Part shown: in pieces, positions 7,373 through 23,712 of the stretch | How positions within the stretch are numbered: position 1 is the stretch's first letter | How the letters are laid out: each line of letters starts with the position of its first letter | NCBI GenBank assembly: GCA_011390345.1 | Contig: JAABSP010000004.1 | Location: 1-64,000, forward strand | Direction: 5' to 3' | Length of the DNA stretch: 64,000 nt | DNA from: Desulfobacteraceae bacterium | Lineage (GTDB): Bacteria > Desulfobacterota > Desulfobacteria > Desulfobacterales > JAABSP01 | Position numbers and translations under genes: made by a program | Notes under the pieces: generated by a model | What the model was told of the DNA's origin: nothing | What the model saw: the letters and a program-made list of their open reading frames with translations, nothing else | Database searches by the model: none

Positions 7373-7380
7373 TGACGCAA

Positions 7381-7409
7381 TTGACTTATGGATATATTTA
7401 AGTCATAAT
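7381..7409 (+). promoter_or_regulatory. Promoter and palindromic operator for the VWA-ABC operon
   Basis: TTGACT (7381-7386), a 17-base spacer and CATAAT (7404-7409) form a good sigma-70 promoter. It is overlaid by a 7-bp inverted repeat, TGACTTA (7382-7388) and TAAGTCA (7399-7405), with a 10-base spacer like that of the repeat in the XRE promoter. The XRE protein is a natural candidate to bind it, but this is inference. Confidence 0.6.
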
Positions 7410-7472
7410 CATCCCCGCTGGGGTATGGATCATTCATCGTCAATACAGCTTGACTTGAAAGGAGATCTAAGC

Positions 7473-9566
7473 ATGATGCATCCAAAGAAAATGTGGTTGC
7501 CGTTCCTCTTGTTGGCTTTGTTTTCGTTTTTTTGCCTCCCCTCGGGTTTTGCCCAGGAGGAGAAACCAGAAAATCGTGTGCCGGTGAAGATTGAGGGAAA
7601 AAAGTTCCTGCCGTTGCGAGTTCTGGCTCGGCCCATGTCGAACATCTATAAAGAACGCGATGAAAACAGCGTCATCGTGGAAGAAAATGTTCCGGTCTTC
7701 CAGAATTATTTCGTCTATACCCGTCCGGATCACTCTATCTTGGACACCGAGGCCAAGGGATGGTATGAGGTGGGAAAAAATAACCGTGGGGATGTTCTGG
7801 GATGGATGAAGGCAGAAGACGTTATGGAATGGAAACAGACCATGTGTCTTTCTTACGAACACCCCATGGGGCGCAAGCCCGTTTTGATGTTCCGCGAAAT
7901 CGAGCCTCTGCGGGAAACGATCAACATGCCGCCGGAGGAACGGGAGAAAAAAGCCCTCGCCTTTTATGAGACGATCAAATCCCAAGAGATTCCTCCTGAT
8001 TTCCCAATCGTCTCCATGGAACCCGAAGCTGCTATTGACATCACCGAACAATTTTATCTTCTGCCTATTCTGGAACATACTGAAATCCAGATTCAGGGGC
8101 GGGAGGGGCGCTTGCTGAAGTTAGCCTCGGCGCCGAAAAGCGGTAGAGCGGCTGAACCGACTCCAGGTCCGGGGCCTGAACCACACCCGTTCAGGAATCC
8201 GGATACAGGCACCGGCGACCCCGCCCCTTTGAAAAAATTGAAGATGGATATCGTCTATGTGGTCGACATGACCGCGAGCATGCAGCCGTATATCGACGCC
8301 ACCCTCAAGACGATTCAGGAAATATCCCAGTCAATTACCGCTGACGCCGAGATCAAAAAAAGCGTCCGATTCGGACTCTGGGGATATCGGGATTCATTGG
8401 ATATTCCAGGCATTGAATTCGTCACTAAAAATTTCACCCCCCAGCTCCAGGAGGTGGATGAGTTCCAGAAGACCCTGGAAGAAGTCAAAGTGGTGAAAGT
8501 CGGCAGCCAGGGCTACGATGAAGACGTCTTCTCCGGTATGGACAAAGCCATGCGTGAGACGAAATGGACAGAGGAAGCCCTTCATTTTATCACCTTGCTG
8601 GGTGACGCCCCGGGACATGGGTCAGGGCACAAGTGGAATCTGTCAAAACAGAACGAAGAGACGTTGCGGGCATTTGCAGACGACAAAAAACTCTATATCT
8701 TCTCGGTTCACATCAAAGATAAGGACGCCAAAGGGTTCTGGGATACAGCGGAAACCCAGTTCCAAACCCTTTCCCAAAATAAGGGCATGCAGGGGAAACC
8801 CGGCTACTTTGGCGTGGATTCAAAAAACATGGATGCCTTTGCCATGGTATCCAATAAAATTGCCGAACAGTTAGTCGACCTCATGAAACAGGCCAAATCC
8901 GGATCTGTTGCCGCTCCTGCAGCAGCCCAGGCTTCCAGCACTTCTTTGCCGTCGAAGCCTTCTTCGGCTGAACCGGTTTCGGATTTTGTGCAAGAAGAGT
9001 CAAAAGTATCTGAAACAATAACAAATATTGGCTATGCCGCTCTGGTGGAGTGGATCGGCACTCAGAGAAAGGTGGAAGCGCCCAGGGACATCGTCGCCTG
9101 GGTGACGGACAAAGACCTGATCGACCCGGCCATTCAATCCCTGGATGTCCGGACCCTGGTGAACAAACGACAGTTGGATTCCCTGACCACGGTGCTCCAG
9201 AAGCTGTTGGAGGCCGGGAGCAAAGGATTGATGAGCGGCCAGAAGTTTTTTTCCGAGCTTCAATCGGTTTCAGGTCTTTCCGTGCGGGACATTGAAAAAA
9301 TCAAGATCGCCAAGACTTTCGCGGAAACCGGCCTGGTTCCGGAATTCCTCGATGGCCTGCCCTATCAGAGCCAGATCATGAGCATGAGCGACGATCTTTG
9401 GAACAGTTGGGGGCCCGACCAGCAGCAGACGTTTCTGGATAACCTCGATGCCAAGATTCAATACTATACCAATGTCCATGACACCCCCAAAGGGTGGGTG
9501 GCGTTGAACAAGGGCGATGATCCTGATGAACATGTCTACCCCTTGAGCCTGGATATGCTGCCGTAA
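7473..9566 (+). CDS. Secreted von Willebrand factor A domain protein
   Basis: 697 aa from the ATG at 7473, chosen for the preceding AAAGGAGA and because it gives a clean signal peptide (KKMWLPFLLLALFSFFCLPSGFA). Residues about 30-130 resemble an SH3-like segment. A VWA domain starts near 255: MDIVYVVDMTASMQPYIDAT carries a metal-site motif of DxTxS type (Asp265, Thr267, Ser269), and HFITLLGDAPGHGSGHKWNL carries the distal Asp. A C-terminal alpha-helical region of about 200 residues follows a Ser/Ala/Pro linker. VWA domains bind partner proteins through a divalent metal. It heads the plus operon with the ABC transporter, so a role as periplasmic partner or substrate receptor of that transporter is likely but not shown. 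Confidence 0.85.
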   Translation: MMHPKKMWLPFLLLALFSFFCLPSGFAQEEKPENRVPVKIEGKKFLPLRVLARPMSNIYKERDENSVIVEENVPVFQNYFVYTRPDHSILDTEAKGWYEVGKNNRGDVLGWMKAEDVMEWKQTMCLSYEHPMGRKPVLMFREIEPLRETINMPPEEREKKALAFYETIKSQEIPPDFPIVSMEPEAAIDITEQFYLLPILEHTEIQIQGREGRLLKLASAPKSGRAAEPTPGPGPEPHPFRNPDTGTGDPAPLKKLKMDIVYVVDMTASMQPYIDATLKTIQEISQSITADAEIKKSVRFGLWGYRDSLDIPGIEFVTKNFTPQLQEVDEFQKTLEEVKVVKVGSQGYDEDVFSGMDKAMRETKWTEEALHFITLLGDAPGHGSGHKWNLSKQNEETLRAFADDKKLYIFSVHIKDKDAKGFWDTAETQFQTLSQNKGMQGKPGYFGVDSKNMDAFAMVSNKIAEQLVDLMKQAKSGSVAAPAAAQASSTSLPSKPSSAEPVSDFVQEESKVSETITNIGYAALVEWIGTQRKVEAPRDIVAWVTDKDLIDPAIQSLDVRTLVNKRQLDSLTTVLQKLLEAGSKGLMSGQKFFSELQSVSGLSVRDIEKIKIAKTFAETGLVPEFLDGLPYQSQIMSMSDDLWNSWGPDQQQTFLDNLDAKIQYYTNVHDTPKGWVALNKGDDPDEHVYPLSLDMLP

Positions 9567-9576
9567 ACCATCTCGG

Positions 9577-9603
9577 AAGGGGGGCTTTGAGCCCCCCTTT
9601 TTT
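9577..9603 (+). terminator. Rho-independent terminator after the VWA gene
   Basis: A 10-bp perfect stem (AAGGGGGGCT / AGCCCCCCTT) with a TTG loop is followed by a run of T. It lies 10 bases after the VWA stop and 30 bases before the ABC ATPase, so it probably attenuates rather than separates the downstream genes, leaving VWA as the most abundant transcript. Confidence 0.85.
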
Positions 9604-9633
9604 CATTCACCGCGGCCGTAGGGGAACCAAGAC

Positions 9634-10386
9634 ATGACCTTAGAAGCGTCAGTGAATGGCGAGCCTTTTGTCTATCGGCTGAAAGACGTCGTGAAGATAA
9701 GAGAAAAAGGAGGGAATCGTTTTGAACTCCATATCCCTTGTTTTTCCATAGAGCCGGGACAATTTATTGCCATTGTGGGCGAAAGCGGATGCGGGAAAAG
9801 CACGCTTCTGGACATGCTGGGACTGGTCTTGAAGCCTACCCGCTGCCGGGACTTTCTCTTTTTCGATCCCCGAAAGCGCGGGGCTGTCGACATCATGGGC
9901 GCAGGCGAATCGAAACTCGCCGACATCCGGAAGGCCAGCATCGGCTATGTCCTGCAAACCGGCGGCCTGTTTCCTTTTCTAAACGTCCGGGACAACATCC
10001 AACTGCCCTGTCGCATCAACGAGCTTGTCGATTACAAAGATTATGTAAACAAGGTGGTCTCTCAACTCCGGATCGATGGGCATATGGATAAAAAACCCCA
10101 GCACCTCTCGGGCGGACAACGCCAACGTGCCGCCATTGCCAGGGCATTGGCCCACAAACCGTTTGTGGTATTGGCCGACGAGCCGACCGCGGCGGTGGAC
10201 AAACTGACCGCAGACGACATTTTGAAGCAGTTCAAATCCCTGACCCAGGAACTCGGGGTGACCCTTTTGATGGTGACCCATGACCTGAAACTCGTTGAAA
10301 ACGTGGTGGATCGGATGTTCACATTCCGGATAGAACCGGTTGAAGAGCAGCACACCCGTTCCTTTTGTTTTGAAATGGAGCGCTGA
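9634..10386 (+). CDS. ABC transporter ATPase of the LolD/MacB type
   Basis: 250 aa. Walker A GESGCGKST (about 50-58), Q-loop GYVLQTGGLFPF, signature LSGGQRQRAAIARAL and Walker B VVLADEPTAAVD are all intact. The short spacing and the paired FtsX-like permease place it with the type VII (MacB/LolCDE/FtsEX) family, which transmits force across the inner membrane rather than importing solutes. Its stop codon overlaps the permease start by one base (TGATG), indicating translational coupling. Confidence 0.92.
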   Translation: MTLEASVNGEPFVYRLKDVVKIREKGGNRFELHIPCFSIEPGQFIAIVGESGCGKSTLLDMLGLVLKPTRCRDFLFFDPRKRGAVDIMGAGESKLADIRKASIGYVLQTGGLFPFLNVRDNIQLPCRINELVDYKDYVNKVVSQLRIDGHMDKKPQHLSGGQRQRAAIARALAHKPFVVLADEPTAAVDKLTADDILKQFKSLTQELGVTLLMVTHDLKLVENVVDRMFTFRIEPVEEQHTRSFCFEMER

Positions 10387-12302
10387 TGAAAGGATCACCG
10401 CCGGAAAACAGTACCATGGCCGGGAAAAAAGGGAAAAAGGGCAATGTGGTGTTGGGCCTGAGTATTGCCGACATGAAGCATGAGTGGATTCTGACCGTTT
10501 GCATCATCCTGGCGATCACGGCGGTCCTTTCTCCTCTGCTGCTGCTTTTCGGTTTGAAATACGGCATCATCGACTGGGGACGATCCTACCTGAAAGAGGA
10601 TCCCCGGTACCGGGAGATCCGTCCTCTGGTCAGCCGGTCTTTTGAAAAGGATTGGTTTGAAGCCATCAGAGAGCAGTTGGACATCGAATTCATCGTCCCC
10701 ATGACCCGTCAGATCTCAGCGTCAGTCGACGCTCAGGTGGTGGAGGGCGGCCCTTCGGACCAACTGAACATCGTGCCCACGAACGACTATGATCCGCTGC
10801 TTCTGGAAAACGGCGCTCCCATCCCCGGATCGGGGGAATGCGTCCTGTCCCATTATGCCGCAGAAGCCATCGGCGCCCAGGCGGGCGATGCGCTTGGGAT
10901 CACCGCCAGCCGCATCATCGACAACCAGTACGAATTCGGGAAAACCACCTTCAAAGTGGCGGGGATTCTCTCGCCCCGGGCCGGCACATTAAAGGACATG
11001 TATGTACGTCTGGAGATTCTGGAAGCGGTGGAGAATTTCAAAGACGGCAGGGCCGTGCCGGAATTCGGATGGGAGGGGGCAGTTCCCAAAGCCTACCCTG
11101 TTTACAACGGCCTGATCGTCCTCCTGCCCGAGGCCTTGTCCAAGACCGAAGTGTTTCGGGTCTACAATCGTTCCGGGTTTACCAGGATTGAACCGTTGGA
11201 CAAGGAGACGTTGTTTCAAAAAACCGGTTTTCGGATCGATTCAGATGATATGATTTACCATTTGTTCACCCTGAGAAAACCGGTGGAGGAAAACGCCATC
11301 GACATCGTCGGCAACCGTCTCCGTGGAAGAGAGCCGGTCTTGATTCCTGTGATCGAGCCTGTCTCCGCTGAACTTCTCGATGAAAAGGGCGCGCTGCTCT
11401 CCCCCATATCCATTCAGGCCCTGACCCATGACCGAAAAACCGCAGAGGAGATCGGAATGAAACCATCTCCCTTTTGGGAGAATGCAGGAGATACCCCACC
11501 CGGAATCCTGAAGATCATGATCTCTTTGGAAATGGCTGAGGCCTCAAACGGTTCGTTTCAAGTTCGATTGAGGGCAGAGGATCGCACCCTCGTTTTCCCC
11601 GTCATCGCCGCAGCCGACCCGTTGGTGGATCAAAAGACCGCTTTTGTTCCTCCTGTTCTGGGGGGCGTATTGAACCTTTTTTTACAAAAAGAGATCGAGT
11701 ATGATGAAACACTCGGGCAGTTTGTGCTGGGCCGGCGTGGATATGCCGGGTTCCGGATGTATGCCCGATCCATTTACGATGTGGACGCGGTTCGAAAGCA
11801 TTTTGAAGCCCTGTCGATTCCTGTCAACACCCGGATAGCCGACATCCAGAAGGTGATGGATCTGGACCGGGGCATGTCGGTAATCTTCTGGCTGTTGGCA
11901 GTGGTGGCCATTGCCGGGAGCGTGGCCTCCCTTGTGGCCAGTCTTTACGCCTCTGTGGAACGAAAGAGAAAAGAGATCAGTATTCTTCGGCTCATCGGCC
12001 TGTCAGGATCAAAACTGTTCCGGTTCCCGGTTTATCAGGGTGTTTTGATCGGAACGGGCGGGTTCATCTGCTCCTACCTTCTGTTCCTGGCCTTTTCAGA
12101 ACTCATCAACACCGGCTTTCGATCCTATGCCGAAAAGATGCTCGGATTTCCCATGAAAGAAGGGGTCGATTTCTGCCGTCTTCCCGCCCTCCATGTGGCG
12201 GGCGTCCTGTTGTTTGTCTTAATCTTATCGACCATTGCCGCAACCATCGCGGCCATTCGCGCAACCCGCATAGATCCGGCGGACGCATTGAGAGACGAGT
12301 GA
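10386..12302 (+). CDS. MacB/FtsX-like ABC permease
   Basis: 638 aa. One membrane helix near 35-60 (ILTVCIILAITAVLSPLLLLF) is followed by a periplasmic domain of roughly 450 residues and three C-terminal helices (about 500-525, 550-575 and 605-630), ending in AAIRATRIDPADALRDE, a typical FtsX-domain terminus. This topology is that of type VII ABC transporters, which move lipoproteins, drive periplasmic MacA-like partners or activate peptidoglycan hydrolases. Neighbouring lipoproteins and an S41 protease suggest an envelope-maintenance or export task (inference). No MacA- or TolC-like partner is nearby. Confidence 0.88.
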   Translation: MKGSPPENSTMAGKKGKKGNVVLGLSIADMKHEWILTVCIILAITAVLSPLLLLFGLKYGIIDWGRSYLKEDPRYREIRPLVSRSFEKDWFEAIREQLDIEFIVPMTRQISASVDAQVVEGGPSDQLNIVPTNDYDPLLLENGAPIPGSGECVLSHYAAEAIGAQAGDALGITASRIIDNQYEFGKTTFKVAGILSPRAGTLKDMYVRLEILEAVENFKDGRAVPEFGWEGAVPKAYPVYNGLIVLLPEALSKTEVFRVYNRSGFTRIEPLDKETLFQKTGFRIDSDDMIYHLFTLRKPVEENAIDIVGNRLRGREPVLIPVIEPVSAELLDEKGALLSPISIQALTHDRKTAEEIGMKPSPFWENAGDTPPGILKIMISLEMAEASNGSFQVRLRAEDRTLVFPVIAAADPLVDQKTAFVPPVLGGVLNLFLQKEIEYDETLGQFVLGRRGYAGFRMYARSIYDVDAVRKHFEALSIPVNTRIADIQKVMDLDRGMSVIFWLLAVVAIAGSVASLVASLYASVERKRKEISILRLIGLSGSKLFRFPVYQGVLIGTGGFICSYLLFLAFSELINTGFRSYAEKMLGFPMKEGVDFCRLPALHVAGVLLFVLILSTIAATIAAIRATRIDPADALRDE

Positions 12303-12337
12303 TCCATTCGGAATCGGCGCGTCGGAGGGAGTTGAAA

Positions 12338-13897
12338 ATGATATTTCGCCATGGTTTCTGGATTTTTTTCATTTTTGCATTGCTGTTTTCCGATCTGGTT
12401 CATGCCAACCCCTACAACCCGCAGCCGCTTCCGGAGGATCTCGTTCTGCCAATGCCGTCCGGTGGCGAGATGGTATTTCGCCCCGTTTTTCTGGGGGTGG
12501 GCGGAGGCCCATTCGGATTGAAAAACTTCAAGGTCGGGGACAATATCGACAATTTCAAGGAATATCCCACGGATGTGACCATCGGCGGCTCATTTGTCGC
12601 GGCCAATCCCAATGGTCAGCCCGATTGGCTCTTTTACATGGGCAAATACGAGGTCACGGAACAGCAGTTCGACCTGGTAATGAACGCCCAATCCCCCCGA
12701 CAGGGGAAGATGCCGGTCAGGAACATCTCCTATTTCGACGTTCAGGATTTCACTCATCAATACAACCTCTGGCTGTATGAAAAGGCGCGCAGCCAGTTGC
12801 CATCCTTCGAGGGGACCCCTGGGTTTCTGAGGCTTCCCACAGAATTCGAATGGGAATTTGCGGCCCGGGGAGGAATCGCTGTGGATACTCAGTTCTTTTC
12901 CAAAACACCCTACGGATCGGAAAACCTGGCCCGTTATGAGTGGTTCGAGGGGCGGAAGTCCTCCTATGGCAAATGCAAGGAGATCGGCCTTCTCAAACCC
13001 AACCCATTGAAGATCCATGACATGCTCGGGAATGTCTCGGAGATGACCTCGTCTCTGTACAATATCGAATACTATCAGGGCCGCACCGGGGGATTGACCC
13101 TCAAGGGCGGCAATTTCTTCACACTGGAAAAAAACATTCGATCCTCATTGCGAAACGAGGTCCCTTTCTATGGCGACGATCTCAAGCCGAGCAGTCAGCC
13201 CACCCTCGGCTTTCGCTTGATCATTGCTTCTCAGGTCTTCACCCGAAAAGGCTATTCGGAAATCGCTGACGGATGGGAAGAATATAAGAAAACAACGCGA
13301 AACGTGCCCAAGCCGCCCTCTACCAGCACCCCTGTGGTCGTGACCCAGACGCAATATCAGTTAGAGGACGCCGTCAAAAGTCTGGACAAACTCGAAAAGA
13401 TGCTGACAGGCTCCGGGGCTGTTTCAGAGCCGGTCTCGGTGGAATTGACCCTTTTGAAAAAATCATTTTCCGATATCAGCTCCATTGTGCAAAAGGCGGA
13501 GTATGATTCCACCTATTCCTCGATCAAGAGTCTTACGGAATCGGCTTTTCTGGTGAGCAGCTTCCTGAAGGACCTCCCCGTCAAGGAAAAAGCCCTGGAA
13601 GCGGCTAAAAAACACGGCCGATCGGCCTATGTAGACGCATTCACCCGACAGGTGGAGGTCATTCAGGAAAATGTCGACACCGGTATCTCCAGTTGCATTT
13701 ACAACTTGGAACAACTGGAAAAATCCCAAAAGGAAACCGTAAAAATCGCTTTTGAAAATCACCGGAAATTCCTGGCCCGAAACGGGGCAGCTAAAGCCAT
13801 CCGCGTCTCAGAACTGATGCAGCACCATTATAAGACGTATATGGAGCGGCAGACTATCGACGACGCAGCATTGAAATCCGACCTGGAAAAGATATGA
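12338..13897 (+). CDS. Secreted SUMF1/FGE-fold protein with C-terminal coiled coil
   Basis: 519 aa from the ATG at 12338, which has GGAGGGAG upstream; an earlier GTG at 12299 overlaps the permease stop but would spoil the signal peptide (FRHGFWIFFIFALLFSDLVHA). The FGE/SUMF1 fold covers about 75-310: YMGKYEVTEQQFD, MPVRNISYFDVQDF, FLRLPTEFEWEFAARGG, IHDMLGNVSEMTSS, LKGGNFF and TLGFRLIIA. The cysteine pair of true formylglycine-generating enzymes is not apparent, so a structural or ligand-binding role is more likely than sulfatase activation. Residues about 340-519 are predicted helical coiled coil, like the small proteins on the other arm of the island. Confidence 0.85.
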   Translation: MIFRHGFWIFFIFALLFSDLVHANPYNPQPLPEDLVLPMPSGGEMVFRPVFLGVGGGPFGLKNFKVGDNIDNFKEYPTDVTIGGSFVAANPNGQPDWLFYMGKYEVTEQQFDLVMNAQSPRQGKMPVRNISYFDVQDFTHQYNLWLYEKARSQLPSFEGTPGFLRLPTEFEWEFAARGGIAVDTQFFSKTPYGSENLARYEWFEGRKSSYGKCKEIGLLKPNPLKIHDMLGNVSEMTSSLYNIEYYQGRTGGLTLKGGNFFTLEKNIRSSLRNEVPFYGDDLKPSSQPTLGFRLIIASQVFTRKGYSEIADGWEEYKKTTRNVPKPPSTSTPVVVTQTQYQLEDAVKSLDKLEKMLTGSGAVSEPVSVELTLLKKSFSDISSIVQKAEYDSTYSSIKSLTESAFLVSSFLKDLPVKEKALEAAKKHGRSAYVDAFTRQVEVIQENVDTGISSCIYNLEQLEKSQKETVKIAFENHRKFLARNGAAKAIRVSELMQHHYKTYMERQTIDDAALKSDLEKI

Positions 13898-13938
13898 AAC
13901 GGATGATCAACCGATTGGAAAAAAAGGAGGACATTGTT

Positions 13939-14598
13939 ATGAAAAAGGGAATTTGCTGTCTGTTGGTTCTGTTTTGGCTGGCCGGATGCGCCACTATGGA
14001 TGATCAGACCAAAACCAAGGCGCAGGGAGCCGGAATTGGCGCTGCTGGAGGGGCGATCCTAGGGGCGGGTCTTGGCTATCTGATAGATGGTGAAAAGGGT
14101 GCCCTTGCGGGCGCCGGTATCGGTGCCGCTGGCGGCGGTCTCGGCGGATACTTCTACGGCAACCATGTGGTAAATCAAAAACAGAAATATGCCGACAAGG
14201 AAGAGTGGCTGGATGCCTGCATCGCCCAGGCCGAGGCCGTCAATTCGCAAACCCGTACTTACAATGAGCAGTTGGAGCAGAATATCCGCGCGATTCGTCA
14301 GGAGGTCTCGGCTCTCAAAACAGAGCACCAAAGGAAAAGAAGCAAAACAGCAGCTTACCAAAAAAGAGAGAAAAATGTCCGCGCCATATATGAACAGGCT
14401 CAAGAGAATCTACAAAGAGCCCAGGCGGAAGTGGCGCTCCAGAAACAGGCTTTGGCGTCAGCTCGAAATGAGAGTGAAATATCCAGAAATAAAATCAAGC
14501 AAATGGAAACGGAGGTCGCCAGCCTGGAAAGGAGCGTTCAGGAGCTGGATCGAACGACGCAGCAGTTGGCCGGCAGCGTGAATCAGTTGCCCACATAA
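13939..14598 (+). CDS. Lipoprotein with glycine-zipper segment and coiled coil
   Basis: 219 aa from the ATG at 13939, preceded by AAGGAGG. The signal KKGICCLLVLFWLAGC ends in a lipobox (LAGC) with Ala at +2, which favours outer-membrane sorting. Residues about 30-85 are a glycine-zipper (GAGIGAAGGAILGAGLGYLI, repeated as GAGIGAAGGGLGGYFYG) that may insert in or along a membrane, as in OmpA-like or SmpA-type glycine-zipper lipoproteins. The remainder is a charged coiled coil. Part of the plus operon. Confidence 0.85.
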   Translation: MKKGICCLLVLFWLAGCATMDDQTKTKAQGAGIGAAGGAILGAGLGYLIDGEKGALAGAGIGAAGGGLGGYFYGNHVVNQKQKYADKEEWLDACIAQAEAVNSQTRTYNEQLEQNIRAIRQEVSALKTEHQRKRSKTAAYQKREKNVRAIYEQAQENLQRAQAEVALQKQALASARNESEISRNKIKQMETEVASLERSVQELDRTTQQLAGSVNQLPT

Positions 14599-14619
14599 AT
14601 CCAAAAAGGGGGATCGACC

Positions 14620-15126
14620 ATGGACGCCAAACATCTCTCAGCACTACTTGTGGCGCTTTTTTTACTCACCGGATGTACGACAACCGGAAATCCAAAAGAA
14701 GGCGGCATCTTTTGGAGTAAAGGTAAGGCGGATCAGCGTCTCATAGATAGAGAGCAGCAGGTCCAGAGGACAGAAGAAAAAAGCCGCATACTGACGGATC
14801 AAAAAAACCGACTCAATGAAGAAAAGCACGTCCAGACAGCCGCGTTGGAGCAAAGCCAAAAGGAATTGGCAAATCTGGATGCCCGTCTTTTGCACCTGGA
14901 AAGGAGCATCCAGTCCTATGAGACGAAAACTCATAAAAATCAGCAGGAACAAAAAGAGATTCAACAGAGGATAGGAGGGTTGCAAAGGGAAATTCAGCAG
15001 GCTCGCGCCCAGATGCAGCAGACGCAGGAGGTGAGCAGCGCCCAGAAGCGCAAGATGAAAGAACTTAACAAGGAACTGGAGTTCCTGCTGAACATGGCCG
15101 AAGCCTCGGGATTTCCGGTTCAGTAA
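14620..15126 (+). CDS. Coiled-coil lipoprotein
   Basis: 168 aa. Signal peptide with lipobox LLTGC (Cys at residue 19; Thr at +2), a short linker, then about 125 residues of near-continuous heptad-like coiled coil rich in Gln, Glu and Lys. Length and design recall Lpp-like or TolC-associated periplasmic struts, but no homologue is recognised. It lies 21 bp after the glycine-zipper lipoprotein. Confidence 0.8.
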   Translation: MDAKHLSALLVALFLLTGCTTTGNPKEGGIFWSKGKADQRLIDREQQVQRTEEKSRILTDQKNRLNEEKHVQTAALEQSQKELANLDARLLHLERSIQSYETKTHKNQQEQKEIQQRIGGLQREIQQARAQMQQTQEVSSAQKRKMKELNKELEFLLNMAEASGFPVQ

Positions 15127-15160
15127 TCCATCTTTGCCATATAAAATAGAGACAGTAGAA

Positions 15161-16783
15161 ATGCCACTCAATAAAGCGGCCAATGGCGTGGGAACGCCCC
15201 GCATAAAAGCGGGGCCTGATATCATTCCACCATGCGCCGGCAAGGACCGTCCGGACCCATTTGTAAAACAACGATATTCTCTTTATTTTTATATGCTCTT
15301 AGTTGGGCTGCTGTTTTTTTTCAAGCCGTCTCAGGCCTTCAGCGATCTCTTGCTGAAAACAGACAGCGTCGTTGACATCTATATCCAGGCGGTCAATGAA
15401 ATCACACGTCGATCAAAAGAGAATCTGGTTCCTGAAGCCATTGTCAAAGGATCGTTGAAGGCATATTTAAAAGACCTGGACCCTTATTCCGATTATCTTA
15501 CCCCGGAGGAGTACGCCGCTTTCAAAGAAGCTCAAAAGAGCCGGTATTCAGGGATCGGAATGGTGATTCACCAGAAAAAATCGGGGGAAGTGGTCTGCAT
15601 TCCCTATCCGGAAAGCAATGCTGAAAACGCAGGAGTGGAAAAAGGGGATGTGCTGCTGGAAGTGGATGGCCAACCGATCCATCAGCGTTCATTATACTAT
15701 CTGTCATCCAGGATTCGGGGGGAAGAGGGCACGTCTGTCCTCCTGACCGTGAAGGGGCATGAAGGGAAACAACGATCACTGAAGGTGGTCCGCGGGGATG
15801 TGCGCACAAAAACCATTGTATTCAAACGGCATCAACAGATCCCCTGCCTTCAGATCATCTCTTTCACCCCGGATACGGTGCGACAGATGTCATATCTCAT
15901 CCAGGGATTGGATGGGGACATGTCCTTGATCCTGGACTTGCGGGGAAATCCCGGCGGCGATCTGCATGCGGCACTGGATGCTGCCATGCTTTTCCTGGAA
16001 AAAGACCGTCATCTGCTGACCATTCATTACCGGGAGACGGAAAAGACCTACCAGAGTTCAACCCCTCCCCTCAGCCGGAAATCCTCTTTGTACATCTGGC
16101 AGGATGGGGATACGGCAAGCGCCGCAGAGGTGTTTATCGCAGCCCTCCTCCATAACCAGAGGGCCGCATCCATCGGCCAGACCACTTTCGGCAAAGGCAC
16201 GACCCAGGATGTGATCGAATTATCAGATGGCTCCGCCCTCATCCTGACCACAGGGCATTTGGAGATCGGGACCCACGTATTTTACGATTTGAAGGGCATC
16301 CGGCCGACATATCCGATTGCGTCCGAAAATCCGGATTTATCCCAATATATTTCTAAAACATCTGATTTGATAAAGGGTCGAGGCGGGAAGGCTGTTGTAT
16401 CTGTCGGCAGCAAAAAGACTCCGGAACCCGAAAAGCCGGTCCCAGCTTCACCGGCTCCGACGCCCTCTAAATCGCCCGAAAGAGAATACTGGCTGCAAGT
16501 GGCCTCCTTCAGGGCTCAAGACAAGGCCATCCGATTTATCGAAAAGCATGATCGGCAAGCTTTTTCCTTTTCAGTGGAGATCACCGGCGATATCCATGCA
16601 ATCGATCATCAGATCATCGAAGACCTTAGAAGCAGGAACATCCCGTTTTTTGTCAATGGTACCGAAAAAGACCGACTCTTTCGGGTCCTGGTGGGCTCTT
16701 ACCCAAGCCAGCAGATAGATGAACGCACACAGGAGACATTCAACAATATCAATCCCCGGATCTGGCGCTATCTGGAGGAATGA
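15161..16783 (+). CDS. S41 carboxyl-terminal processing protease with SPOR domain
   Basis: 540 aa if started at ATG 15161; a TTG at 15134 is also in frame and neither has a good ribosome site. A hydrophobic segment (about 40-58) precedes a CtpA-type catalytic region: RYSGIGMVI and a PDZ domain (about 125-195), LILDLRGNPGG, then DTASAAEVF with Ser320 and FGKGTTQ with Lys345, the 25-residue Ser/Lys spacing typical of Tsp/CtpA. A proline-rich linker leads to a C-terminal SPOR domain (about 460-540; YWLQVASFRAQDKA, FRVLVGSYPS), a fold that binds denuded peptidoglycan. The combination would tether a periplasmic protease at division or remodelling sites. The 3' end overlaps the convergent gene by 16 bp. 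Confidence 0.85.
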   Translation: MPLNKAANGVGTPRIKAGPDIIPPCAGKDRPDPFVKQRYSLYFYMLLVGLLFFFKPSQAFSDLLLKTDSVVDIYIQAVNEITRRSKENLVPEAIVKGSLKAYLKDLDPYSDYLTPEEYAAFKEAQKSRYSGIGMVIHQKKSGEVVCIPYPESNAENAGVEKGDVLLEVDGQPIHQRSLYYLSSRIRGEEGTSVLLTVKGHEGKQRSLKVVRGDVRTKTIVFKRHQQIPCLQIISFTPDTVRQMSYLIQGLDGDMSLILDLRGNPGGDLHAALDAAMLFLEKDRHLLTIHYRETEKTYQSSTPPLSRKSSLYIWQDGDTASAAEVFIAALLHNQRAASIGQTTFGKGTTQDVIELSDGSALILTTGHLEIGTHVFYDLKGIRPTYPIASENPDLSQYISKTSDLIKGRGGKAVVSVGSKKTPEPEKPVPASPAPTPSKSPEREYWLQVASFRAQDKAIRFIEKHDRQAFSFSVEITGDIHAIDHQIIEDLRSRNIPFFVNGTEKDRLFRVLVGSYPSQQIDERTQETFNNINPRIWRYLEE

Positions 16784-17616
16784 TCAGTGCCCATTCCTGA
16801 TGCAAAAAGCCTTTCCGGACCTTGTCGGACTTTCCAAATCCACAGTTGGATCAGCGCCAAAACCATGACGGACAAATGCAGGTTCTGCAGCCGGCCAGCC
16901 AGGAAGAAAAAATCCAATCCCGCCTGAAGACCTGAACAAAAAATCAGAAGCATGCCGCTGAGCAAAGGGGCTATGCGCCGAAGCCCCCCTACACGCGGCG
17001 GTGTTTTAAACACCCATATGCCCACGATGATGGCGCCGAGACTGTAGCTGAAAAGGGTCAACACGCCTCTGGGAGGACCGCTTTGAAATCCCTGAAAAAA
17101 AATATATACGGACAAGTAAATCACGACCACGACCGGGTAAACCCCGCTCTGTTCGCGCCCCATCGCCCTGGCGCACATCCATGCCGAAAGACAAAGTCCC
17201 GACATCCGGATAAAGGATTCCATGTACAGCACCAACCAGACGGATCGAACAGAGATCCATCGAAGAAAACCGGCAAGGATCGTCCAGTTGATCAAATAGA
17301 CAAAAGCGATCATGACCACGGCCGAATAAAACAGAGGGAAAAAGGGGATGCGGTGGGGTGAAGATTCAAAAGCCCTGACATAGATGACCATCCCGAGGCT
17401 CATGGGAATCGAGGCCATGATGAGAGAACGAACGACAAAAAGGGCAGATCCTGCAGCCGTGACATCGGATGGCAGGCCACTGGAAAGGATGATCAACAAT
17501 CCTCCGGCATAAAATAGACCGGCCTTGAGGGGTTGTGGAACGCGTTCTTGCCGCAGCCAGAGAAACAACGAGATTGACCACAAAAGGCCAAGGATATGAT
17601 GGGCATCCGGCGTCAT
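16768..17616 (-). CDS. Polytopic membrane protein of unknown family
   Basis: 282 aa with about eight hydrophobic helices and short loops. No recognisable active-site motif. It is the last gene of the minus operon and overlaps the TPR-like gene by 4 bases (ATGA), so it is translationally coupled. The C-terminal tail (KVRQGPERLFASGMGTDHSSR) is polar. Given its position after TolQ/ExbD-like genes it may be a membrane anchor or accessory subunit (inference). Confidence 0.75.
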   Translation of the reverse strand: MTPDAHHILGLLWSISLFLWLRQERVPQPLKAGLFYAGGLLIILSSGLPSDVTAAGSALFVVRSLIMASIPMSLGMVIYVRAFESSPHRIPFFPLFYSAVVMIAFVYLINWTILAGFLRWISVRSVWLVLYMESFIRMSGLCLSAWMCARAMGREQSGVYPVVVVIYLSVYIFFQGFQSGPPRGVLTLFSYSLGAIIVGIWVFKTPPRVGGLRRIAPLLSGMLLIFCSGLQAGLDFFFLAGRLQNLHLSVMVLALIQLWIWKVRQGPERLFASGMGTDHSSR

Positions 17617-18575
17617 GGAGTAATCATCGTATTCATACCATCCAGGAAATATCGGCTCTTCCGGACCACCAGACCCAGGGCAGGGTCATCAGGCGGAATT
17701 GCGGCCACACGGTTGAGAAGTTGTTTGGCTTGAAGATAATCCCCGGCATGAAAAAAACAGAAGCCAGCGGCAAAATCAACATACGCTGATTGCCCCCGAG
17801 ATTGAAGTTCCTGAGCCAGTTCGAAAAAATCCCGCCGATTCCGGGTGAGTTGTGTAATGGCGACCAGGCTGGTCAGCAGCCGGTCCAATAGAGATAATCG
17901 CTGTTCACGCCCCATGTTCCGCAGGCCAAGTGCGGAAGCCGACAGGCGGACGTTAACCCAATGAGCCTCGATAAAAGATTCATCCAATTCCAAAGCTTTC
18001 CGGATATGCGTCAAGGCGCCGGAACCATATCTTTCAGCTTCATCTGAAAGCGACAGCAGATAATAGGCGTCCGACAGCCAAGGCAGCGAAGATCCCGAGT
18101 ACAGCTCCAGCCCTTTTTCCGCAAAGTATCGGGGCTCCGCTTGCCGGTGGACGCGAAAAGCGGCCCTGCCAAGGCCAATGAACGCCCGATATCGAATCAG
18201 CCGCGGCAGGTCATTTCTTTCTGACAGCGCCAGGAGCCGGTTTTTCATATGGGTGTAATCGTTTGACATCCTCGCGAATTGAAACACCCGAACGATATCC
18301 GGACGTTTTTGCATGAAATCAGCCAACATCCCGGGATGACGCATGAAATAGTTGTCTCCCGCAGGTTTTATATGATCCATGCTTCCCTTTGTTTTCCCGG
18401 AAACGCCTTTGTAGCTCATCTGTTGACGATCGGACAACCATGTCTCGATGGGGATGGGCGGCGCTTTCCTTTCCATCATCACCGGCGGCGCAAACCAGAA
18501 GGCCCGGTCCGGTTCATGAGCAGAATCGGCGGCCATGGCCACCGATAGAAAGAGTCCGAGAATCATTTGCACCAC
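17613..18575 (-). CDS. Secreted TPR-like helical repeat protein
   Basis: 320 aa. A short signal peptide (MVQMILGLFLSVAMAA) is followed by a polar segment and then helical repeats with TPR character (LIRYRAFIGLGRAAFRVHRQ, ALTHIRKALELDESFIEAHW, YVDFAAGFCFFHAGDYLQA). TPR proteins scaffold complexes; this one probably stands in the periplasm. It is 21 bases downstream of the second ExbD-like gene and overlaps the next gene by 4 bases. Confidence 0.75.
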   Translation of the reverse strand: MVQMILGLFLSVAMAADSAHEPDRAFWFAPPVMMERKAPPIPIETWLSDRQQMSYKGVSGKTKGSMDHIKPAGDNYFMRHPGMLADFMQKRPDIVRVFQFARMSNDYTHMKNRLLALSERNDLPRLIRYRAFIGLGRAAFRVHRQAEPRYFAEKGLELYSGSSLPWLSDAYYLLSLSDEAERYGSGALTHIRKALELDESFIEAHWVNVRLSASALGLRNMGREQRLSLLDRLLTSLVAITQLTRNRRDFFELAQELQSRGQSAYVDFAAGFCFFHAGDYLQAKQLLNRVAAIPPDDPALGLVVRKSRYFLDGMNTMITP

Positions 18576-18596: not shown

Positions 18597-19271
18597 CTAC
18601 TGGTAATAATATTCATCCACATTGAATTGGGTCATGTGGCGATAGATAATGATCGGCTTTCGGGCATGGATCGTGGATATCCGAAATCGAAGCCCCGTAG
18701 CGGCAAGCTGCGCATGAATTTTTGAAAAAAGAGCCATTCCCGATGGATAAACGAAAAAACAGGGGACGGTATGCATTTCAGAGAGCTTTTGAACGTCATG
18801 GAAAAAAAGATCGATCCGGTCTTCGTCATAAAAAAGATCCTTCTGTTCTTTAAAATGCGCCCAGTTCACCTCATACTCCAGGTAATAGGAATCGATATCC
18901 CCGTTTATGCCAAAACCGGAAAAACGAAAAACACCGCCGGGCATCCTTATTGTTTGAATCGCTGAGGCGGTTTCGGCTGATTGATCTTCTAACGCATCAA
19001 TGGTCTCTGTCACATCCCATATTGCCATCTGATCATGGGCCACGATGTAAAACGCACTAAAGGGCGGAAACCATTCACGATGGGCTGCTCTGAATTCCAC
19101 CGGTGCGGGCTCTTCTGTGGCGGCTGATTCAAGACTTTTTGTCACTTGGTAGCCCATGGAAATGCTCGTGACAAGCAACACGACGATGAGTATCCCCAAA
19201 AGGTTGGAGATGACGTCGGATATCGCGTTCAGCCCCTGGGGGTCATCGGCTTCGGTGGCCATATGGGGCAT
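18597..19271 (-). CDS. ExbD/TolR-like protein 2
   Basis: 224 aa, one N-terminal membrane helix (about 15-42, AISDVISNLLGILIVVLLVT) with an Asp (D19) near its cytoplasmic end, as in ExbD/TolR/MotB rotors' ion-carrying subunit. The periplasmic part (about 45-224) has no OmpA-type peptidoglycan-binding motif. Its start lies inside the preceding ExbD-like gene (29-bp overlap; an in-frame ATG at 19262 would shorten this to 20). The adjacent pairing of two ExbD-like proteins with one TolQ-like protein is unusual. Confidence 0.75.
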   Translation of the reverse strand: MPHMATEADDPQGLNAISDVISNLLGILIVVLLVTSISMGYQVTKSLESAATEEPAPVEFRAAHREWFPPFSAFYIVAHDQMAIWDVTETIDALEDQSAETASAIQTIRMPGGVFRFSGFGINGDIDSYYLEYEVNWAHFKEQKDLFYDEDRIDLFFHDVQKLSEMHTVPCFFVYPSGMALFSKIHAQLAATGLRFRISTIHARKPIIIYRHMTQFNVDEYYYQ

Positions 19272-19758
19272 CCTTTTGCCATTTCAAGATGATCGGGGGC
19301 AGCTCGCCGGACTCTGCCAAAGGCCACAGCATGGTTTCCACATGAGGGGGAATGCGCTGCTCCCCATTTTCCATACGCTTTTTACCGATCGCTCGGATGG
19401 TCTTCATCAATCGGTCTTTTTCATGGAATGCCTCCGCATCAAAGGCCACCAGCAGGGGCAAAATATCTTCCCGCTGCCGGAGTCTTGCCTCTATAAACTG
19501 CGCAGCTTCATGGCTGTAAACCGCTATCCCCTGATGGTCGGCCTGGGTGAAGAAAAGATACGGGCTGTTGTCTGCACAAACAACTGCCATCTCCGCCGTG
19601 GGTGGGGGGATATTGATCTGCGTCTGGAGGATATGAATGATGGAGATGAGGATCAGAAAGATTCCCGCAGAGGAAAAAAGGATGTCAACCAACGGCAGCA
19701 TGGATACCGCCCCCGTGAGTTCGGGGTTGGAGGTCTTTTGATCCTTCCCGAAGATCAT
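19243..19758 (-). CDS. ExbD/TolR-like protein 1
   Basis: 171 aa. The single membrane helix (about 19-44) follows the ExbD pattern MLPLVDILFSSAGIFLILIS with a conserved-position Asp (D25) that would carry protons. The periplasmic domain is about 125 residues. It overlaps the TolQ/MotA-like gene by 4 bases (ATGA) and the second ExbD-like gene by up to 29, so the three are produced together, presumably in a fixed ratio. Confidence 0.82.
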   Translation of the reverse strand: MIFGKDQKTSNPELTGAVSMLPLVDILFSSAGIFLILISIIHILQTQINIPPPTAEMAVVCADNSPYLFFTQADHQGIAVYSHEAAQFIEARLRQREDILPLLVAFDAEAFHEKDRLMKTIRAIGKKRMENGEQRIPPHVETMLWPLAESGELPPIILKWQKDAPYGHRSR

Positions 19759-20579
19759 GAAGGGTCCGTTTGGGGAATAATCTTGTTGATGCGATCGATG
19801 AGCTTGAGATAGTAATCTTCCAACTGGGAATGGATCATCCGGTTCAAGATCAGGGTCGCGAACATGACCACCACTGTCAGAACAAGGCCAAGAAACGTAG
19901 TGTCAAAGGCAGTGGACAGACCGGAGAGCACTGCTTGCATACTCCCCTGGAGTGCGCCGCCCAACTGCTCCTGGGTGTTGGCTACCAGGCTGTTGAGACC
20001 TGCAATGGATCTTGAGATCCCCAGCACCGTGCCGATGAACCCCAGAATCGGCAACACCCAGACTCCGAATTGCAGAAAATAAAGATCCCGGGTCAACCGC
20101 TCCCGATGAATTTGAAGATATGCCTGGCACCATTTGAGCCCGTGATCCAGCCGAGGAATGGAGCCGACGGTTTTGGTGAACACGGCTGCCATCTCGCCTT
20201 CGTGTCGGCCGGAAAGGATGTAGGCCAGAGAATGTCGCCGGCCGAGCCCGCCTCCTGCCGGAGAGGGCCGAATGCGCCCTTCATGGTATTCCAGATCTTC
20301 CAGAAGCGACTCGAATTCGGCCTTGTCGGCTTTGAGTGCGAAGAATTGGATAGCATAATAGACGACCACTGCTGAAAAGGCTCCGAATATGATCAGACAA
20401 ACCGGATCCGAGATATACCTCAACAGATCCGCACGGCCCAGAATTCCTTGAGTGTCGCCTCCTTCGACATCCTTCAGTACAGAATGATAATAGATGATGC
20501 CTGAAATGAAGAGGCCGGTAAAAACGGAAAATACAAAAGGAGGATGGATCTTGAACGCTGACATCCGTTTGCCGTCCAT
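19755..20579 (-). CDS. MotA/TolQ/ExbB proton-channel family protein
   Basis: 274 aa. Two N-terminal membrane helices (about 13-32 and 55-78), a cytoplasmic stretch, then the MotA_ExbB domain helices: LPILGFIGTVLGISRSI (about 185-205) and LSGLSTAFDTTFLGLVLTVVVMF (about 230-255). The proline after the leucine and the TAFDTT segment are the conserved pore-lining features of TolQ/ExbB. Family members form a pentamer around an ExbD/TolR dimer and convert proton flow into force on periplasmic or outer-membrane partners. The presence of two downstream ExbD-like genes recalls the AglR-AglQ-AglS gliding motor of myxobacteria. Confidence 0.88.
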   Translation of the reverse strand: MDGKRMSAFKIHPPFVFSVFTGLFISGIIYYHSVLKDVEGGDTQGILGRADLLRYISDPVCLIIFGAFSAVVVYYAIQFFALKADKAEFESLLEDLEYHEGRIRPSPAGGGLGRRHSLAYILSGRHEGEMAAVFTKTVGSIPRLDHGLKWCQAYLQIHRERLTRDLYFLQFGVWVLPILGFIGTVLGISRSIAGLNSLVANTQEQLGGALQGSMQAVLSGLSTAFDTTFLGLVLTVVVMFATLILNRMIHSQLEDYYLKLIDRINKIIPQTDPS

Positions 20580-20626: not shown

Positions 20627-21022
20627 CTATAAATCAGGTAAATTTTTTTCTTTTTCTCTGATTCTGCTCAATTTCTCCTTTGTTTTCTGAAGCAACAACT
20701 CCATCTCCTCCTGTTTTTGTTCAAAGCCCTCCTTCCGCTGTTGAACTTCCATCCGTTGTCGTTGAAGCGCCATGATGGCCTGGGGGGCAGTCTCCTCATC
20801 GATCCGTTTTTGAACAGCCGCCTCCTCTTCGGTCAATTGTCGAATGTTTTCCTGGATCAATGCCTCTGCTGTGCCGATCTCATCGATCAGGGTCTCGAGT
20901 TTATCAATGACATCGGCCAACGGCTGCCCTTGGCCAGCTAAACCTGTAGACGCGGCCAAGGCGATCATCCCTGAAAAAAAACAGAGCAAAAGTCGCGTTT
21001 TCCTCATTTGTCCGCCCATCAA
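20627..21022 (-). CDS. Secreted coiled-coil protein (131 aa)
   Basis: Signal peptide (RKTRLLLCFFSGMIALAASTGLAG) and then about 100 residues of coiled coil (DKLETLIDEI, then EEEAAVQKRIDEETA and QRRKEGFEQKQEE-like heptads). No family recognised. It begins 4 bases inside the preceding gene and lies 47 bases ahead of the TolQ-like gene. Smallest of four secreted helical proteins encoded in a row. Confidence 0.75.
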   Translation of the reverse strand: MMGGQMRKTRLLLCFFSGMIALAASTGLAGQGQPLADVIDKLETLIDEIGTAEALIQENIRQLTEEEAAVQKRIDEETAPQAIMALQRQRMEVQQRKEGFEQKQEEMELLLQKTKEKLSRIREKEKNLPDL

Positions 21023-21654
21023 CCCGGCGTTCCGGAAACGTCGGGGATCGCTTTGTTCAACTCGTTAAGATCCCGGTTAATCGATTCAAGCTCCTGGCCC
21101 AGTTCGCTCATGTGTCTGGTGATCTCATCATCCATGTTCAAAAGGCGAAGTTGTTTGAGCTTGTCTTTGCTCTCTCCCACCCAGACGATTTTGTCCTTCA
21201 AAACATCCCTCTGCTTGGTGACCATCTCCCTGAGATCCTCGTACATCCGGATACGGTTCTCCCATTCCTCGGATATCTTCATCCAGAACTTCTTGTCCTT
21301 GGTGCTCTGGACTTCGTCGATCTGCTTCTGGGCGTTGTCCTTATATCCGACAGCGATCTCCCTGTATCTCTCAAGATCCTTCATGGTGTCGGAATCCTCT
21401 GACAAGGAAGTGGAGAGGTTTTTCAGGTGGTTTTCAAATTCGGAAAACTCCTTCTCCACCAGATCTGCGCCTTTAATACCCTTTTTCAGGCTCTCGTTCA
21501 ACGCCTGGATGATGGATTGGGCCTTCCCAACGCTCTGTTTAAGATTGTCAAAGGCCTGATTGGCATCCTTTGTGCTTGAATCCTGTGCGGCAAGATCTGC
21601 CGTCGCCGACGACAACCCAATCAGCAGTGCAAACATCATTGTTCGGGCTCTCAT
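21019..21654 (-). CDS. Secreted coiled-coil protein, paralogue of the upstream gene
   Basis: 211 aa. Signal peptide ending LSSATADLAAQ, then a fully helical mature region. The block FENHLKNLSTSLSEDSDTMK aligns with VQELVSILSEDSDFIKNLRD of the neighbouring 214-aa protein, and both follow the same plan (QALNESL.. / DALQKIEEF..), so the two are tandem duplicates. Function unknown; likely periplasmic. Confidence 0.78.
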   Translation of the reverse strand: MRARTMMFALLIGLSSATADLAAQDSSTKDANQAFDNLKQSVGKAQSIIQALNESLKKGIKGADLVEKEFSEFENHLKNLSTSLSEDSDTMKDLERYREIAVGYKDNAQKQIDEVQSTKDKKFWMKISEEWENRIRMYEDLREMVTKQRDVLKDKIVWVGESKDKLKQLRLLNMDDEITRHMSELGQELESINRDLNELNKAIPDVSGTPG

Positions 21655-21685
21655 GTGAACTTCTCCTTTTTTTCAAAATAACAGA

Positions 21686-22330
21686 TTATTGAGGCATCCC
21701 TCCAGTGGTCTCTTCTCCATAATTTTCGATGAGATCATCCATCTCATTCAATGCGGATCGGATGGAATTGAAAGTCGTCCCGATCTGATCTTCCATCTCT
21801 TTCATGCGAAGATATCGGATGTTTTGCAGGATCTCCTGTTCCGCCGACTGCATCTCGATGCTTTTGGCCATGAGTTGTTTCCGGACGCTTCGGGCCTCCT
21901 CGATCTTCCGGCTCACGCGCTCGGCCCCTTCCCGGTTTTTCTTTGCCAGATTCTCGTGCTTTCTCTTTTTCAAAGGATCTTCCGCATCCTTTGCCAGATT
22001 CTCTTCATCCTTTCCGTAAGTGTCGTACATCACTTTGAAATCCCGTAGGTTCTTAATGAAATCCGAATCCTCGGAAAGAATGGATACCAGCTCCTGAACG
22101 CTGGTGATCAGATCGGTGAATTCGCTTTTGATTTCCTCAGGCTTCTGGAACTCCTGGTAGGAGACCATGAATTCCTCGATCTTTTGAAGCGCATCCTGAA
22201 CTGCCTGCTTGCTCTTCTGCAGACTATCTCCGTCGATACCAGCGCCTCTCTGTGCCCAAGCGCCGGCAGGAAACAAAAAAAAGAACCATAACACCGCAAT
22301 ACCACACATCCTCATCCTGTTGGCCTGCAT
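21686..22330 (-). CDS. Secreted coiled-coil protein with LSEDSD motif
   Basis: 214 aa from the ATG at 22330; an in-frame TTG at 22387 overlaps the preceding gene but would place 19 polar residues before the signal peptide (MRMCGIAVLWFFFLFPAGAWAQ). The mature part is helical and highly charged, with the LSEDSD block shared with the next gene. AAGGGGG stands upstream of the chosen start. No known family. Confidence 0.75.
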   Translation of the reverse strand: MQANRMRMCGIAVLWFFFLFPAGAWAQRGAGIDGDSLQKSKQAVQDALQKIEEFMVSYQEFQKPEEIKSEFTDLITSVQELVSILSEDSDFIKNLRDFKVMYDTYGKDEENLAKDAEDPLKKRKHENLAKKNREGAERVSRKIEEARSVRKQLMAKSIEMQSAEQEILQNIRYLRMKEMEDQIGTTFNSIRSALNEMDDLIENYGEETTGGMPQ

Positions 22331-22380
22331 CGGATATTTTCCCCCTTCTTTCTGCGCATCCGGGTTTGGTGAGATACCCT

Positions 22381-23712
22381 TCAGCAATCTTTGGACACCA
22401 TGATATCTTTGATGATCTGGTTTAAGGCCGACACCCTTTTAACCAGCTTATCGTATTCCAGGCGGATATTCTCAAGGCTGTTTTGCCGATAAACAATATC
22501 TCGTTGATTGTGCATGATATGGTAAAACGCTTTGTAACTCCCTTTTTCGAGCATTTTCTGCTTTTTTTTCTCAAATGACAATCCGATGATCTGGCCCAAT
22601 TGTTTCAACTCTTCCAGTTGGGCATCAATATTCTGATGAGCGATCTGATCGGCTTCGTCCATATACTTCCTCAGATCTCTGCAATGCATATCATCGGGAT
22701 CTTTTTTCATATAGGCATCGATCTTTTTCTCCTGTTTGATGAGATCTTTGTTGTTGTTCTCGAACATTGCCACCTGCTTTTCCCACCCCTCCAAAGATCC
22801 TTCGTTTTTGGAAATTTTATCGATGGCTGATTCATAATAGTCCGACAGCATACTCAGTTTGTAAGACAAAGAAATTTCGTCTAAAATCTGCCATTCATCC
22901 CCATCTCCGGAGTGATTTTGCTCGATTTCGAAAATTACCCGGGAACGGTTGATGATGTCATTGTAAAACGGTGCCATCTTCTCATGATCATATGCCACAT
23001 TATGGGCCAACAGCCGGATAGTCTCGGAATGGACGGCGCTGGCCTTATTGATGACTTCGTCGAGAAATGCCTTGCCTTCCATTTTCAGGCGTTTTTCCAA
23101 CTCCGCCAGAGTATCTCCATCTGTTTTTGCCATATCCGGCAGGTGTTCCAGTTCAAGAAGATGATGCGACAGCACCTGATCCATTCGGGTAAAGAGCGTT
23201 AGTCGGAAAAAGTCGGAATTTTCGTCGTCTTCGGCTGATGACATTTGATAATCGAACCATTCGATGAAGGGTTTGAAGGATTTTCTCCGAAAATCAAAGA
23301 AAGCATGTCCTATACTATCGGTTTTGATCCGGATGGTTTTAATGAGGATCTTTCGGCTCTCCTTGGCTAAAGGGTCTTCCGGAGGCGGACTCTTTGATTC
23401 TTCATCAAAATTATTCCTGACGCGGTGGAAACGTCGCTGGAGATCCGTAAAAAGCGTATTCAACTGATAATAGCGTTCAAAAGCTTTTGGAGATTCGATA
23501 TCTTTCAGCAGACTGTCGAGCTTTTTTTCTATCTCGTCGAACTGCCCCAGCAGGAGGCTGAATACGGATTTAGGCGGTGGTTTTTCCTCGACGGGTTTAT
23601 CCGCCGAAGCAGACATCAAAAGGAAAACAGATGAGGCCACGGCAATAGAAACCAGGGCAAAAAACGAAACAATTCTTTTAAAAAAATGAACGATCAGGGT
23701 TTTGTCTTTCAT
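22381..23712 (-). CDS. Secreted or membrane-anchored helical protein, first gene of the minus operon
   Basis: 443 aa. One N-terminal hydrophobic segment (IVSFFALVSIAVASSVFLLMSASA, about 13-36) could be a signal peptide or an anchor. The rest is long alpha-helical sequence with many Asp, Glu and Lys residues (FDEIEKKLDSLLKDIESPK, YYQLNTLFTDLQRRFHRVRN). No recognised domain. It has a GAGGGGA ribosome site and a promoter about 240 bases upstream, so it opens the operon that continues to the TolQ-like motor genes. Confidence 0.75.
   Translation of the reverse strand: MKDKTLIVHFFKRIVSFFALVSIAVASSVFLLMSASADKPVEEKPPPKSVFSLLLGQFDEIEKKLDSLLKDIESPKAFERYYQLNTLFTDLQRRFHRVRNNFDEESKSPPPEDPLAKESRKILIKTIRIKTDSIGHAFFDFRRKSFKPFIEWFDYQMSSAEDDENSDFFRLTLFTRMDQVLSHHLLELEHLPDMAKTDGDTLAELEKRLKMEGKAFLDEVINKASAVHSETIRLLAHNVAYDHEKMAPFYNDIINRSRVIFEIEQNHSGDGDEWQILDEISLSYKLSMLSDYYESAIDKISKNEGSLEGWEKQVAMFENNNKDLIKQEKKIDAYMKKDPDDMHCRDLRKYMDEADQIAHQNIDAQLEELKQLGQIIGLSFEKKKQKMLEKGSYKAFYHIMHNQRDIVYRQNSLENIRLEYDKLVKRVSALNQIIKDIMVSKDC

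Follow-up and report, generated by a model that had tools for sequence, protein, structure and literature searches.

A divergent MotA/TolQ/ExbB-type channel with two unlike single-helix partners, encoded in a nine-gene run of a Desulfobacteraceae bacterium

Within the stretch of 64,000 nucleotides that we analysed (contig JAABSP010000004.1 of a Desulfobacteraceae bacterium; hereafter the window), three overlapping genes on the minus strand encode a channel protein of the MotA/TolQ/ExbB superfamily and two different single-helix, Asp-containing partner proteins, here called D1 and D2. Judged from their sequences, these genes appear to specify a genuine, divergent and orphan representative of the two-partner ion motors, a class that has so far been poorly described. 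We give roughly even weight to a fuller reading, namely that the products form an ion-driven inner-membrane motor of a non-canonical class within the MotA/TolQ/ExbB superfamily, with D1 and D2 as the axle and with output passing to the coiled-coil and TPR proteins that the operon also encodes.

The motor genes lie in a run of nine genes on the same strand, reading from position 23712 to 16768, with intergenic gaps of no more than about 50 bases. The run opens with a secreted helix-rich protein of 443 aa (22381..23712), which has an N-terminal hydrophobic signal-like segment and matched no Pfam family. It is followed by three secreted coiled-coil proteins, of 233 aa as called (21686..22387), 211 aa (21019..21654; from the list of open reading frames and the Pfam search) and 131 aa (20627..21022; weak, sub-cut-off similarity to DUF3450 and Mce4_CUP1). 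The 233-aa protein was called from a TTG, and an ATG 19 codons inside the reading frame is the likelier start. Then come the genes for the 274-aa channel protein (19755..20579), D1 (171 aa, 19243..19758) and D2 (224 aa as called, 18597..19271), and downstream of these a 320-aa TPR-like protein with a signal-like N-terminus (17613..18575; TPR families below cut-off) and a 282-aa polytopic membrane protein with at least six hydrophobic segments (16768..17616), which closes the run and had no match in Pfam or NCBIfam. The overlaps of 4 and 29 bases described in the initial annotation hold for the three motor genes as called, except that the second probably measures 20 bases, making D2 221 aa long, because the second ATG of D2 (19262) is preceded by a better-placed, well-spaced Shine-Dalgarno sequence, AAAGGA (AAAAGGATGCCCCATATG). 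The four successive secreted helix-rich or coiled-coil proteins encoded at 20627-23712 (minus strand), none with a confident family assignment, are possibly periplasmic levers of the motor.

The 274-aa channel protein passed the Pfam MotA_ExbB model (PF01618) with 38.8 bits against a cut-off of 22.9 (E 9e-10). It has four hydrophobic segments, with GFIGTVLG in TM3 and GLSTAFDTT in TM4, and alignment with TolQ places threonines at both of the TolQ-type positions, in the TM3 GTV motif and in TM4, in keeping with membership of the superfamily. The TM4 sequence is close to that of channels linked to GAP1 genes (GLSVAFDTT); the kinase-linked channels have SLGVAFNST instead, and TolQ a sequence of the GISEALIAT type. 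Among 389 genomes of the class, the best matches to the window channel were channels of these linked kinds (E about 1e-13), the GAP1-linked ones being the closest (blastp E 1e-15 to 1e-13); ZorA models also matched it weakly (E 7e-6), and a scan of the genome contigs with the ExbB peptide found nothing. In a tree, the group containing the window channel was split, with support of 100/99, from the TolQ and ExbB proteins found in the same lineage. We treat this placement as only indicative, since the branch of the window ExbB is very long and similarity to that protein was the basis on which rows were picked. We suggest that the non-canonical class to which the window motor would belong is distinct from TolQR and ExbBD. 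Most of its members have GFIGTVxG in TM3 and a GLSxAF(D/N)(T/S)T-like TM4 in the channel, together with partner helices of the pattern D-x6-G, and many of its loci encode two non-identical partners.

Both partners have a single hydrophobic helix, scoring 2.5 on the Kyte-Doolittle scale, and in each an Asp lies close to the cytoplasmic (N-terminal) end: Asp25 of D1 in PLVDILFSSAG and Asp19 of D2 in AISDVISNLLG. D1 scored 15.6 bits with Pfam ExbD (PF02472), below the cut-off of 25.4, and its residues 10-129 could be aligned colinearly with classical ExbD/TolR over 116 columns, the hhalign alignment being weak (probability 44%, pairwise E 2e-4). A PDB sequence search with D1 returned TolR helix matches only, and these were weak (E 0.1). 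D2 had no Pfam match, no homologue in the 389 genomes of the class or in 395 of the phylum, and nothing useful in a PDB sequence search. The initial annotation had described D2 as ExbD-like; this did not hold, since hhalign aligned only 27 residues, at the helix, and neither Pfam nor hhalign detected ExbD homology in the periplasmic domain beyond it. No similarity between D1 and D2 was detected, which rules out D2 as a recent duplicate of D1, and we conclude from the sequences that the two are of different lineages. Single-sequence AlphaFold models of D1 and D2 were unreliable (pLDDT 40 and 47).

To score the helices we used a profile trained on 25 partner segments, all taken from loci outside the window, and compared the result with 583 other genes. 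The D2 helix ranked first, with 12.8 bits against 4.9 for the next gene, and was equalled by 0 of 2000 shuffles; this rank is strong yet not fully independent, because the pattern by which the training segments were selected had been devised with knowledge of the window helices. The D1 helix ranked fourth of 583 with a weak 3.3 bits (17 of 2000 shuffles), and classical TolR/ExbD helices scored below zero. Lying directly behind a non-canonical ExbB, both proteins thus carry helices that fit the D-x6-G profile of the non-canonical partner class. As the D2 helix fits that class better than any of the 583 other genes, we conclude that D2 is probably an axle-type subunit. Despite the orphan domain, it is the helix that counts for motor membership, and the helix scores strongly. 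The C-terminus of D2 (residues 148-195) matched that of GAP1-type partners weakly (hhalign, pairwise E 0.006), which hints at a common terminal domain.

The proposal that one MotA/TolQ/ExbB channel is encoded with two different single-helix Asp partners, neither of which carries an OmpA domain, was borne out by the Pfam searches and by the Asp25 and Asp19 helices, and a heteromeric axle is therefore plausible, as had been suggested. The significance of the channel match, the tandem Asp-helix genes behind the channel and the first rank of the D2 helix among 583 argue against a chance arrangement. The gliding motor AglR-AglQ-AglS had, however, been taken as the sole familiar case of two partners, and this presumed rarity is wrong: we examined 20 related Desulfobacterota loci, selected because they surround matches to the window channel, and counted two D-x6-G partners behind a single channel in 12, a lone partner in five and no partner in three, and exbD pairs have been published in four genera. 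Tandem exbD1 and exbD2 genes occur in Xanthomonas and Flavobacterium (PMC3551730), Riemerella has exbB2-exbD21-exbD22-tonB2 (PMC4446302) and Stenotrophomonas has exbB1-exbD1a-exbD1b (PMC11002078). All of these resemble the window in having one ExbB with a tandem exbD pair, but their ExbDs are canonical and accompanied by TonB, whereas TonB is absent here and D2 is no duplicate of D1. The layout itself is thus not unusual; what is new is that an orphan partner is encoded within an operon of nine genes whose products include four secreted coiled-coil proteins and a TPR protein. We regard the window copy as an unusual and so far unique version, tied to secreted coiled-coil proteins.

The surveyed loci fall into two kinds of cassette. 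GAP1-N2 (GTPase-associated) cassettes, in which an ExbB-like channel goes with two coiled-coil Asp partners (L033, L034, L036 and L038), share with the window the TM4 sequence AFDTT and two unlike D-x6-G partners downstream, but differ in that the partners are coiled coil after the helix and in being linked to GAP1-N2 genes, with no secreted coiled-coil genes; a limited literature search found no paper describing this link between GAP1-N2 and ExbB. The second kind combines a Ser/Thr kinase, FGE/PEGA proteins, an ExbB-like channel and FHA proteins, mostly with two vWA-like single-TM Asp partners (L039-L045, L048 and L051). Here L040-L044 and L048 likewise have one channel and two partners with D-x6-G helices, but the partners carry vWA-like domains, TM4 reads AFNST and genes for a kinase and FHA proteins are present.

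Convergent with the motor operon, on the plus strand, genes at 7320..16783 encode a vWA protein, an ABC ATPase, an FtsX-like permease, an FGE/SUMF1 protein, a Gly-zipper lipoprotein, a coiled-coil lipoprotein and an S41 protease with a PDZ and a borderline SPOR domain (15134-16783). We found the same set of genes together in seven other genomes, with the permease 36-54% identical and the G132 copy cut by contig ends; no ExbB match lay within the flanks fetched there, one contig being short. The first four products matched, in order, the PpkA ectodomain, TagT, TagS and TagR of a Pseudomonas mangrovi T6SS locus (blastp E 3e-82, 7e-50, 1e-30 and 3e-44), so that the neighbour is a homologue of the T6SS TagQRST/PpkA module; no kinase domain was found in its PpkA-like vWA protein. 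TagQRST is an envelope sensor of T6SS threonine phosphorylation, and contig C40 of the genome carries a T6SS cluster. The module is probably outside the motor. The SPOR protease had been put forward as a possible receiver of the motor's force, and it is a poor candidate because its vWA-TagT-TagS-TagR-like module occurs elsewhere without the motor; the link between motor and protease amounts to adjacency. We rejected a single conserved cassette of motor and SPOR/S41/FGE genes on the same ground, the module recurring with no ExbB match in the flanks fetched. In two family members, the orthologue of the DAHP-synthase gene to the right of the window locus has neither motor nor module alongside. 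A scan of the genome contigs with an FGE profile gave mostly generic FGE proteins, and the top matches included the Pseudomonas mangrovi TagTSR locus.

In the mechanism that we propose, a pentamer of the 274-aa protein would enclose an axle of two helices, most likely one from D1 and one from D2; a heteromeric 5:1:1 complex is plausible. The axle Asp residues would take up and release ions in alternation at the conserved TM3 and TM4 threonines, and this cycle would turn pentamer and axle against each other. D1 would contribute an ExbD/TolR-like periplasmic domain and D2 a different, lineage-specific one. Motion would pass to other products of the motor's own operon, the secreted coiled-coil proteins and the TPR protein, rather than to the SPOR protease, and the biological output may be force transmission or sensing in the envelope. 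In favour of the motor reading we count the MotA_ExbB match, the channel threonines and AFDTT motif, the tree split at 100/99, the helix ranks of D2 and D1, the colinear alignment of D1, the 12 two-partner loci, the tightness of the nine-gene run and the conservation of the Tag-like module without the motor. Against it we count the lack of D2 homologues, ExbD homology of D2 confined to the helix, the sub-cut-off score of D1, the unreliable AlphaFold models, the long ExbB branch and a comparison set chosen by similarity.

To our knowledge the solved 5:2 motors, MotAB, ExbBD, TolQR and GldLM, all have two identical axle chains. Rather than one heteromeric motor, the window genes might encode two alternative homodimeric motors on one pentamer, five ExbB with two D1 and five ExbB with two D2, having different periplasmic outputs. 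We consider this rather unlikely. In Xanthomonas, iron uptake proceeds without exbD2, which pectate-lyase induction and the hypersensitive response both require (PMC3551730), as separate outputs would predict, and whether AglQ and AglS form hetero- or homodimers has been left open (PMC9389320), a question for which a compact operon with two non-duplicate partners is a good test case. However, the overlap of the D1 and D2 genes suggests coupled production, and unlike partner pairs recur in unrelated cassettes, so that a fixed pair of D1 and D2 fits somewhat better.

D2 could also be an adaptor rather than part of the axle, joining D1 and ExbB to the coiled-coil proteins from the gene position that TonB occupies in DUF3450-TtpC-ExbB-ExbD-TonB-TPR operons. 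That ExbD homology of D2 is confined to the helix, that the genes are ordered similarly to those of the TtpC-type set on contig C36 of this genome and that the 131-aa upstream protein has a weak DUF3450 match would all suit such a role. We nevertheless judge it quite improbable, as the D2 helix has the Asp-x6-G pattern and its score of 12.8 bits was the highest of the 583, and as we know of no TonB helix that has this Asp. A still wider proposal would make the motor and the Tag-like module one envelope-sensing machine, the motor driving or being gated by the vWA/TagT/TagS/TagR-like complex and perhaps controlling the T6SS of the genome. The two operons are adjacent and convergent, the kinase-type ExbB cassettes of relatives also join FGE, vWA partners, a Ser/Thr kinase and FHA, and a T6SS cluster is present; however, the seven related genomes carry the module without an ExbB match in the flanks fetched (one contig short) and TssB went undetected in three of them, and we think this proposal very improbable.

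Returning to the motor with a D1-D2 axle, a described counterpart in layout is the Myxococcus gliding motor AglR-AglQ-AglS, which likewise pairs a single channel with two Asp partners of one TM segment each (PMC9389320); it differs in that AglQ and AglS are MotB/TolR homologues with TolR-like peptidoglycan-binding domains, and no Glt genes were recognised in the window. The TonB2-type system with TtpC and DUF3450 (contig C36, L050) is similar in its operon of coiled-coil protein, ExbB, ExbD and TPR protein, but has a canonical ExbD and TonB and lies at a separate locus. The survey suggests that there are many two-partner motors, tied to GAP1, kinase/FHA, FGE and vWA proteins, for which the literature searched described no function. 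With more doubt than belief, we raise the idea that Desulfobacterota have a large class of ion motors in which the axle is obligately heterodimeric. Its two single-helix proteins would differ from each other, and each would bring a separate periplasmic effector domain, be it a coiled coil, vWA, ExbD-like or orphan. If so, one pentamer would drive or gate two different outputs, and the window motor would be a reduced form of the class, in which one partner has an ExbD-like domain and the other an orphan domain.

D1 and D2 matched no PADLOC model and lack an OmpA domain, which sets the motor apart from Zorya, and the PADLOC models gave no convincing membership of any defence system. Nor does the motor operon contain tolA, tolB or pal. 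Replacement of Tol-Pal by the motor was ruled out: the apparent absence of TolQ, TolR and TolB, which three family members have, is an assembly gap, since contig C92 ends inside tolB beside pal, cpoB and ruvCAB. A family search alone would, at this contig end, falsely suggest that Tol is missing; pal, cpoB and the truncated tolB of this genome are found there (L192), with ruvCAB alongside. The vWA/TagT/TagS/TagR homologues at 7320-13897 (plus strand), kinase-less and followed by two lipoproteins and the S41 protease, are kept across Desulfobacterota, including in genomes with no detectable TssB.
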